Shown here in pieces: positions 33,001-36,000 of a DNA stretch of 64,000 nt (the stretch's first letter is position 1; each line of letters opens with the position of its first letter). The notes beneath the pieces were generated by a model that worked only from the letters and a program-made list of their open reading frames with translations, was not told the origin of the DNA and did no database searches. The translations under genes and the position numbers were made by a program. Origin of the DNA: Hirudinaria manillensis (lineage: Eukaryota > Annelida > Clitellata > Hirudinida > Hirudinidae); contig CM067526.1 in the NCBI GenBank assembly GCA_034509925.1, positions 10,707,629-10,771,628 of the forward strand, in the 5' to 3' direction.

Positions 33001-36000
33001 GCAGTCTGCGTTCGTGGGTCGAAGCTGTCCATAGGTGGTTCTTGGTGACCCTGAACTCACCTGACAAGGGCTTGCCATCCTGCTTCTTCCAGTACACTAG
33101 AGGTTCTGGATCGCTGTGCACGACGCATTCGAACGTCACCTCTTCTCCTACTTTGGCTTCCACTGTCGTTTTACCTGGTCAGAGTTCGAATGTTGAATGT
33201 TGTCGATAGTTATCATAGATTTTGATTCTATTGTTCAATATTGTGAAATTATTTCTGTTATTAACATCACTGTAATATGATATAATAATACTTATTATTA
33301 TTATTATTATTATTATTATAACAATAATAATAATATAATAATAATAATAAAAATAATATAATAATATTATTATAACAAGAATAATAATATAATATATTCT
33401 TATATATTATAATTTAATATTATTATATATATTATAAATTATTATTATTATATAATATATTATTATAATATTTAATAATATAATATATTATTATATATAT
33501 TATTATATATTATTATTATTATTGTTGTTGTTGTTGTTGTTGTTATTATTGTTATTGTTATTATTATTATTAATATAATAATAATAATATAATATATTAT
33601 TATTATTATATATAATATAATATATTATTATATATATTATTATTATTATATGTATTATATATATATAATATATATATATTGTAATAACCCGGGGTCCTCA
33701 AACTAATTATAGAAGGTCAGGTTTATTGAACGTTGTCAGATGGCTTGGAAGATGTAAAATGCTTAATTGATTAAGTCTTGAAATCTGCTGTTTCTATTAC
33801 TCTCGCTCTACTTTCCGATATAAATCCATTTGTCAAAGGTACATAACCAAAGAGTCTGAATAGCACCAATTTAATTCTCAAATTATATTGCCACTAAATT
33901 TAATTAATTATTAAAATAATTAATCGGCAATATAATTTTAAATATTATTCAATTTATTGGATCTAGGGATCCAACACTGCCCCCTCCTTAAATCTGTTCG
34001 TCCCGAACAGACATCTATTCCCATTTTCATTTTTACTCTCGGAATAGGATCCGATCTTCCAACAATCTCATGGCTGCAAATCCCAGATCCATTTGCTTTG
34101 TCATCTTCTGGGATTTCTGTCTCCTCCCTTTTACTTCTGCGTCCCGCAAGTTTCAGCCGCGGAACATCGCCATTTCTATGCACACTCTCCTGCTCCACGA
34201 TGTCGCCAGATCCCAGACTCTCCTCAGGATCACCTGCTCCACTTTCCATGCTAGGCACTCTCCTGAAATCCCGAGCGCTCCCTTCTGTTATTTCCAATGG
34301 AGCCGAAACATCCGCTGGTAAATCCATGGGCTGTTCTGTAGACTCTACTTGTTCCACCATCAAATCCGTGCGCTCCACCGGCAACCCCACGAGACTCATC
34401 AGTAACTCCTCGGGCTGCACCAACAACTCCACATGATCCACCGGCAATCCCATAGGCTCCTCCGAAAGTTCCACTTGCTCCACTAAAACCTCCGTGAGCT
34501 CTCTGGGCCCTGCTGACGACTCGACCTGATCTGGTAACTCTATGGGCTCCAACGTCGAGTTCTCTAAGTCTGCCATCACGCACAGAGTTTCTGGAGACAC
34601 GTACGCACTGTGGTTGGATGTGCCTTCTAATGACTCCATCCCAATGCTGCCAGAAACGGTACTTGGAACATCAGAACTCTTCTCAGTAGAGTTTCCATCA
34701 GAAACCAAAGAGGCATTCTGACACGGAACCGTTCTGTTTTTCAAATCACCCCTAATACTCCTAATACATTCCCTCATCTCATCTACGGACTTTTTCATAA
34801 AATCAAGAAATTCATCCATCTTTTTATGGGATGGATTCTCGAATTCGTATTCCTCTGGGTCATGGCCATTCTCTGTCAGCCATGCCCCAAGTCGCTCTCG
34901 TATCTCAGCTTTCGTGCCTTTCCAATCCAGGCCACGCTCTCTCAATTCTTGTCTCAATCGAGGCACGTACAATTCATCCAAGTACTTCGGCATCGTTCAC
35001 TTTTCAACTAAACAAGCTTCTACTTTAGTTACTTTTGGATACCCTTTAACTCTAAATCCCACTCCTGACACCAATGTAATAACCCGGGGTCCTCAAACTA
35101 ATTATAGAAGGTCAGGTTTATTGAACGTTGTCAGATGGCTTGGAAGATGTAAAATGCTTAATTGATTAAGTCTTGAAATCTGCTGTTTCTATTACTCTCG
35201 CTCTACTTTCCGATATAAATCCATTTGTCAAAGGTACATAACCAAAGAGTCTGAATAGCACCAATTTAATTCTCAAATTATATTGCCACTAAATTTAATT
35301 AATTATTAAAATAATTAATCGGCAATATAATTTTAAATATTATTCAATTTATTGGATCTAGGGATCCAACACTATTATTATTATTATTATTGCTATTATT
35401 ATTATTATTATTATTATTATTATTATTATTATTATTATTATTATTATTATTATTATTATTATTATTATTATTATTATTATTATTATTATTATTATTATTA
35501 TTATTATTATTATTATTATTATTATTATTATTATTATTATTATTATTATTATTATTATTATTATTATTATTATTATTATTATTATTATTATTATTATTAT
35601 TACTATTATTATTATTATTATTATTATTATTATTATTATTATTATTATTATTATTATTATTATTATTATTATTATTATTATTATTATTATTATTATTATT
35701 ATTATTATCATTACATTGTCAAGTAGTTAGGTTTTTTTTTCTTAGCTAATGGCATGTTCTAACAATTACATTGTAATTATTTGGCAAAATTCGCAAGAAT
35801 ATTTCATTCACAGAACCGAAAAAATTGAATGACGAAAGTTGGTGGCTCATGATTTTTGCGCTTTTTGGTGGCACAATCCATCCACAGTAACAGCATCCAT
35901 TAAATTAAAAATAAAAACAAACTTAAAATGCAACGTTGTAAACGTTGGATGGAAGAAAGGAGGAATATCCTTTGCTTCAAATTGTTCATGTTCTGAATTA

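Follow-up and report, generated by a model that had tools for sequence, protein, structure and literature searches.

TR-GAG elements of plants are non-autonomous LTR elements that keep only gag. In wheat, RLG_Quinta and RLG_Cereba are non-autonomous and autonomous partners with common LTR termini, PBS and PPT (PMC11302176). In the parts of that source used here, the partnership is defined by the same PBS, the same LTR termini and a conserved second LTR half; Quinta carries a Gag-related ORF and a region without assigned function, and recombination between lineages is described (PMC11302176). Sabrina is another semi-autonomous element of this kind. For Athila of Arabidopsis, the available portion of the source describes non-autonomous lineages with intact ORFs under purifying selection, and recombination between distant lineages (PMC2410132). 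PbTRIM of Pogonomyrmex barbatus is a short non-autonomous element with a tRNA-Leu PBS and 4-bp TSDs, of which ATAT is the commonest. It is 480-781 bp long and non-coding, within the definition of a TRIM (shorter than about 1 kb, non-coding), and in the sections of the source drawn upon its authors found no functional partner (PMC3532108).

Herein, an LTR element of 1,692 bp was analyzed at 33680-35371, on the minus strand, of a 64,000-nucleotide stretch of Hirudinaria manillensis DNA, which is called the window. The searches covered the 148.4-Mb host genome in 23 contigs. The family of this small element is probably a non-autonomous LTR retrotransposon of Ty3/gypsy type, mobilised in trans by co-resident autonomous elements with a SAP-Gag. 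The element at 1-3071 of the window is its likely helper, and is called the helper below.

The small element and its likely helper

The features of both elements are collected in Table 1. A sequence-only reading of the window had described a non-autonomous element with two matching 297-bp LTRs, a PBS, a PPT and a single ORF of 351 residues, and each of these features was located where it had been claimed. The hallmarks of non-autonomous LTR retrotransposons (TG..CA LTR ends, PBS, PPT and TSD) are all present in the small family. The PBS matches 20 consecutive nucleotides, without a mismatch, of the 3' end (with CCA) of the tRNA-Leu(CAG) of the host genome, whose gene was read by ARAGORN from locus L103. 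The element is outside the TRIM class, with 1,692 bp and an ORF showing selection.

Table 1 Positions of the features of the small element and of the likely helper in the window.
Feature	Position	Strand	Description
Small element, 5' LTR	35075..35371	-	297 bp, TGTTGG...TTACA in element sense; 100% identical to 33680-33976
Small element, PBS	35054..35073	-	one base after 5' LTR; 20 nt equal to tRNA-Leu(CAG) 3' end
Small element, 351-aa ORF	33938..34993	-	ends 39 nt inside 3' LTR; sole ORF of the element
SAP domain of ORF	34889..34975	-	residues 7-35; Pfam PF02037, E=1.2e-6, above curated cut-off
VEQVE/LPVDHVE degenerate repeat region of ORF	34298..34558	-	residues 146-232; excess self-identity at lags of 7, 14, 21 and 28 residues
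Small element, palindrome CTGTTCGGGACGAACAG	33994..34010	-	17 nt, shortly before PPT; identical in helper
Small element, PPT AAGGAGGGGGCAG	33977..33989	-	adjoins 3' LTR
Small element, 3' LTR	33680..33976	-	297 bp; 100% identical to 5' LTR
Likely helper, 5' LTR	2851..3071	-	221 bp; 99.6% identical to 3' LTR outside the window (224 bp aligned)
Likely helper, Gag-Pol ORF	1..2770	-	SAP, CCHC, protease, start of RT; runs on past the window to H2C2 and rve integrase

The window copy is flanked by ATAG and ATAT, a TSD with one mismatch, and is among the three copies (n=83) without a perfect TSD. Its neighbours are an AT-rich imperfect repeat tract (33292-33687) and a 341-bp (TAT)n run (35373-35713). 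Given the imperfect TSD amid these tracts, local rearrangement or assembly trouble is possible at this site. Further along, a 262-aa ORF on the minus strand at 36188-36976 has, at first sight, the look of a putative leucine-rich repeat protein with a signal peptide.

The sequence-only reading had placed a fuller element with a SAP-bearing Gag at 1-3071. The SAP-Gag was found there, and the interval proved to be only the start of an intact element that crosses the left edge of the window. This element has a single open Gag-Pol frame of 1,648 codons from stop to stop. Its domains follow the Ty3/gypsy order (PR-RT-...-IN), Pol ending in H2C2 and rve integrase, and it lies about 30 kb from the small element in the same window. 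Its TSD, GTAT, was read from an empty site at about 11384. The left flank of the helper locus (L031) corresponds to 7142-11387 at 99.5% and the right flank to 11383-13467 at 98.1%. In the region 3072-13467 of the window, 6.3 kb or more of sequence is present as two nearly tandem copies (98-99.5%); the helper sits in one of them, and the other is the empty site with a single GTAT. Inside this duplication, 4594-5838 is a head-to-tail repeat of a 624-bp unit with 100% identity.

Nine LTR regions of the helper type were read, including that of the 1-3071 element. All of them start with TGTTGGATCCCTGACATT, and identity among the seven with clear ends is 94-100%. SAP-Gag matches were found at 305 places in the host genome, and among the 150 matches listed the helper group has many long open frames.

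A likely full-length helper sharing LTR ends and PBS, for which the sequence-only reading had advised a search, was found in the same genome. The LTR end, PBS and leader start of the small element and the helper agree at 89% over 57 bp, and the palindrome, PPT and LTR start at 83% over 82 bp. Beyond these, the shared DNA is limited to the beginning of the SAP coding region (115 nt, 70%) and to short AT-rich stretches of the LTRs. Both PBSs match tRNA-Leu(CAG) over 20 nt, and the TSD size of 4 bp is common to the small family and the helper. The cis signals (LTR tips, PBS, palindrome and PPT) are therefore common to the small element and an autonomous partner in the same genome. Since the partners share little else, this pair shows directly which cis signals would be the minimum for mobilisation.

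In helper elements the last three bases of this PPT are CAA or TAA, versus CAG in the small family. A helper-type LTR adjoins the CAA or TAA junction in 8/8 cases picked from the list. A ninth CAA site (C1:7282301), sought by pattern, was considered as a 3' chimera and rejected; it is a point variant of the small family, at 97.4% over the 351 bases read. The small LTR was scored against the seven clean helper LTRs, with values of 138.5-142; five of the seven beat all 100 fixed-tip shuffles and two do not. The interiors of the two LTR types show at most weak similarity. L095 and L096 have variant LTR ends and were scored with flank included, and their values mean little.

The palindrome has a single-strand fold of -10.5 kcal/mol with a z of -1.4, which is not significant alone. 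In the helper it codes for the end of Pol, and another frame is used in the small ORF, whose last ~23 codons overlie the palindrome, the PPT and the 3' LTR. This difference in frame suggests that the palindrome is retained as a nucleic-acid signal. The possibility that the ORF tail is an in-frame derivative of Pol was ruled out by the different frames in which Pol and the small ORF run through the shared sequence.

At G000:C1:5586096-5629425, 75 exact matches to the tRNA-Leu(CAG) 3' end lie on a single strand, spaced about 585 bp apart. This is a long tandem array of predicted primer tRNA genes, of which one unit was read as a tRNA.

Copies, protein and constraint in the small family

According to the sequence-only reading, a single copy in the genome would have made the ORF incidental; this outcome was not observed. 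In the host genome, exact patterns of the small family gave 290 PPT-LTR junctions, 228 LTR-PBS junctions and 810 LTR 3' ends. LTR ends outnumber junctions, which suggests that several hundred LTRs are either solo LTRs or have a mutated partner, two classes that exact patterns cannot separate. Full-length matches of 1,692 bp occur at 34 places at least, including the window copy (40 of 1,217 candidates scored).

A set of 90 loci was read. L031 is the helper, and the remaining 89 include the window copy (L004). The 83 copies with two full LTRs were analyzed; L051, L052, L055, L067, L069 and L090 were left out, having no LTR pair. The claim of very recent movement is borne out. Three further places match all 1,692 bp at 100%, with a top score equal to that of the window copy. 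No difference was found between the LTRs in 63/83 pairs, and at most one mismatch in 78/83. The copies are 1.7-2.0 kb long. A TSD of 4 or 6 bp was found in 80/83 copies, with ATAT the commonest (32/83) and GTAT, the TSD of the helper, the second (12/83). The AT content within 25 bp of the insertions was 0.79 (30 copies) versus 0.72 around ATAT sites of the window, and was similar beyond 100 bp. The insertion preference for AT-rich DNA is a weak and local effect. A search for relatives in viral contigs gave 11 pattern matches, none of them confirmed. At G000:C1:9071390-9074903, next to a helper 3' end, junctions 1,747 bp apart suggest two small elements in tandem with a common LTR.

In 79/83 copies the frame that begins at the common start stays open for 340 codons or more, the exceptions being L018, L025, L066 and L075. 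The case in which relatives do not conserve the ORF, raised by the sequence-only reading, was not observed in this sample, which leans to intact frames because most of L032-L090 came from an ORF search and a few from DNA or LTR matches. In the copies gathered by DNA similarity to the window copy (L001-L030), the ORF is intact in 28/30. When the 1,057 nt that hold the ORF were shuffled base by base 2,000 times, the longest chance frame had 145 codons, versus 351.

The 79 open copies encode 340 to 455 aa, and the length varies by in-frame modules. The modules include different helices following residue 52, a block of ~50 residues present 0, 1 or 2 times, an ESKVVLP-type insert and an extra VEQVE block. 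Eighty copies were classed. Each of the two commonest helix modules was found alongside either LTR length type and either C-terminal type. Each C-terminal type, too, was seen with either LTR type, although the rarest combination is represented by a single copy, and six copies have no clear C-terminal type. These mixed combinations indicate that copies of the small family have recombined. Distinct indels divisible by three numbered 27/47 in coding and 9/45 in non-coding sequence of the nucleotide alignment, counts of little weight since many coding gaps are alignment fragments. In the helper-type Gag read at L091 (positions 465-1106), the part after SAP likewise consists of repeats in variable number (LRSDNNV/LRSDMSCGMDA type), which recalls the modular tail of the small protein.

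SAP is the only Pfam domain above the cut-off in the 351-aa ORF, and it was present in 26/26 family members scanned, which were picked for diversity from the 83 copies. The Pfam scan of the ORF and of these 26 members found no reverse transcriptase, integrase or protease, in agreement with the claim of an ORF without enzyme domains. No Pfam capsid family was found in the 26 members, and a very diverged capsid is conceivable. The weak extras SAP_new25, DUF167 and DUF896 each appeared in 1-3 of the 26. A profile of the 26 members was compared with the helper Gag (480 residues) by hhalign, and only residues 2-74 aligned (E=9.8e-14, 51% identity, 73 columns). The claimed likeness of the N-terminus to the Gag of the 1-3071 element is confirmed by this alignment. 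Its confinement to residues 2-74 indicates that the small protein has SAP and the next helix in common with such a Gag, whereas its tail is different. A zinc knuckle was not recognisable in the small protein by hhalign to the helper Gag or by Pfam on the 26 members. The absence of enzyme and capsid matches in Pfam and hhalign is in line with the non-autonomous nature proposed for the element. The VEQVE/LPVDHVE repeats are genuine, as their periodic self-identity demonstrates (Table 1). A single-sequence AlphaFold model (mean pLDDT 43) displayed the SAP helices and a helix at 57-86, with the rest lacking confident structure, and was left out of any fold search.

The sequence-only reading had proposed dN/dS as a check of ORF conservation. 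For the 71 unique coding sequences among the 79 open copies, pairwise comparison gave a pN/pS of 0.57 overall and of 0.20 over SAP. For 24 representatives more than 2% apart, with intervals from a codon bootstrap, pN/pS was 0.59 (0.45-0.79) overall, 0.24 (0.07-0.77) for SAP (residues 1-52), 0.86 (0.49-1.69) for residues 53-100, 0.47 (0.34-0.70) for the repeat region (residues 101-235) and 0.72 (0.37-1.56) for residues 236-320. In the site-based test, variants were counted against the window copy as reference. SAP had 11 nonsynonymous (N) and 16 synonymous (S) variants versus 8.0 S expected (p=0.0004), with p=0.17 for residues 101-235 and p=0.04 for the whole ORF. When only variants in at least two copies were counted, the values were p=0.048, p=0.03 and p=0.01, respectively. 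Third positions held 17/28 variable sites in SAP, and no such excess was seen in residues 53-100 or 236-320. The real frame had the lowest pN/pS of the six frames, 0.57, followed in one antisense frame by 0.61.

These tests are indicative, since related copies enter them as data and recombination is disregarded. They give signs of protein-level constraint on SAP, by both methods, and the repeat region is probably constrained as well, by pN/pS and more weakly in the site-based test. Residues 53-100 and 236-320 had no clear protein-level constraint in the pN/pS bootstrap and the site-based test.

Mobilisation and the role of the small protein

In the favored explanation, small-family RNA would be packaged in helper particles and primed by tRNA-Leu. 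The helper RT would then copy the small element, and the helper integrase would insert it. The small protein may be a trimmed Gag-like factor, with SAP and the adjacent helix followed by a repeat tail without recognisable capsid or zinc knuckle.

One locus joins the two element types. At L091 (C3:10941200), positions 1-408 are the 3' end and LTR of the small family at 99.5%. The helper PBS, leader and gag start follow directly after the small LTR at 92%, and further gag follows at 82-90%. The 3' LTR is of the helper type, and the 3' end is 99.3% identical to L031 over 689 bp. Both ends of L091 were read, and the gag has frame changes within the part read. The left end is abnormal, being a truncated internal stretch whose start coincides with, or falls inside, 7 bases that match the flank. 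In the retroviral mechanism, second-strand transfer between two co-packaged genomes leads to a switch at the PBS. The PBS switch at L091 would be as predicted by co-packaging, and genomic recombination over the shared sequence would look alike. The reciprocal chimera had 0 exact matches in the host genome, and L091 is the sole junction locus found. An autonomous element with the 297-bp LTR was sought by an exact pattern (small LTR end with a non-small leader), which a different motif would escape; its two matches were L092, a small-family copy, and L091.

These findings bear on the identity of the helper. There is a modest chance that another SAP-gypsy lineage, or one now lost, serves the small family rather than the 1-3071 type, considering that 305 SAP-Gag matches exist (150 listed), that nine helper LTRs were read and that the small LTR interior is close to none of them. 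However, L091 involves the 1-3071 lineage, by its gag start (92%) and its 3' end (99.3% to L031), and the PPT-LTR junction is common to eight further helper junctions, so that several lineages may serve. As for the ORF, it could be a relic or by-product in a pure parasite whose RNA is mobilised in trans, the frame staying open through the youth of the copies. Most LTR pairs are identical (63/83), leaving a short time for decay; two stretches of the ORF look neutral, the repeats give p=0.17 in the unfiltered site-based test, the tail is a frame-shifted reading of cis signals, and most copies beyond the first 30 were chosen via an ORF search that favours intact frames. We nevertheless regard this explanation as unlikely, since the frame is kept among subfamilies several percent apart and with length modules, the substitutions in SAP are mostly synonymous (p=0.0004), the upper bootstrap limit for residues 101-235 is 0.70, and 28/30 copies are intact in the set found by DNA similarity.

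If the ORF is kept for its protein, several roles can be considered. SAP domains bind nucleic acid, often AT-rich DNA. Tentatively, the small protein may bind nucleic acid via SAP and helper Gag via the shared N-terminal module, and in this way give the RNA or DNA of its own element an advantage during packaging, entry into the nucleus or contact with chromatin. The cis-preference is assumed because selection could otherwise hardly keep an ORF in an element living on others. The small element would then be a parasite without a capsid that keeps, under selection, the SAP 'address' module of Gag and a rapidly reshuffled repeat tail; its protein could be a cis-preferring adaptor carrying its own RNA or DNA through the helper particle, into the nucleus or onto chromatin, a picture possible on the sequence evidence and held with reserve. 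The protein might instead supplement helper particles in trans, as a semi-autonomous partner, which has been proposed for the GAG of RLG_Quinta in the part of the wheat source used here (PMC11302176). The likeness to the N-terminus of helper Gag and this precedent are consistent with such a role, but with neither a capsid nor a zinc knuckle recognisable, the protein would scarcely be able to form a shell alone, and the role seems unlikely. Interference, in which the SAP-helix protein would act as a competitor or a poison of full-length helper Gag and bias particles to the small RNA, is quite improbable: the same N-terminal module minus the assembly part would have the shape of a dominant-negative fragment, yet many long open frames persist in the helper group.

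Comparison with known systems

The adaptor role, if true, would add a third strategy beside non-coding parasites (TRIM/LARD) and gag-keeping parasites (TR-GAG/Quinta). It is plausible that the SAP module with repeats is a distinct way of parasitising a helper, as the sequence-only reading had suggested. The small family is a high-copy non-autonomous LTR family in an animal genome, with signs of purifying selection on its protein and a probable helper about 30 kb away. This one genome allows us to ask why a parasite element keeps a protein, and what SAP does at the N-terminus of these Gags.

The small element does not encode a recognised Gag capsid domain, which separates it from TR-GAG and other gag-keeping elements. 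PbTRIM has the same primer type and ATAT duplications, compared by description and not by sequence, but in the portion of its source considered it is non-coding and 480-781 bp long, whereas the elements here are coding and 1.7-2.0 kb long. Athila, as far as described in the available part of its source, keeps gag or env, unlike the ORF here, which is neither as far as recognised. The pair of RLG_Quinta and RLG_Cereba resembles the small element and the helper in the same PBS, the same LTR termini and a Gag-related ORF in the small partner. It differs, in the sections of its source used, by the conserved second LTR half, whereas the LTR interior is hardly shared here, and by the GAG domain kept in RLG_Quinta, whereas here only the SAP and helix module of the Gag N-terminus is recognisable. 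Among the literature results listed, no non-autonomous element was found that retains just the SAP module. The type of partnership is already known, for example from wheat Quinta, and what looks new is that only the SAP end of Gag is kept, without the capsid.
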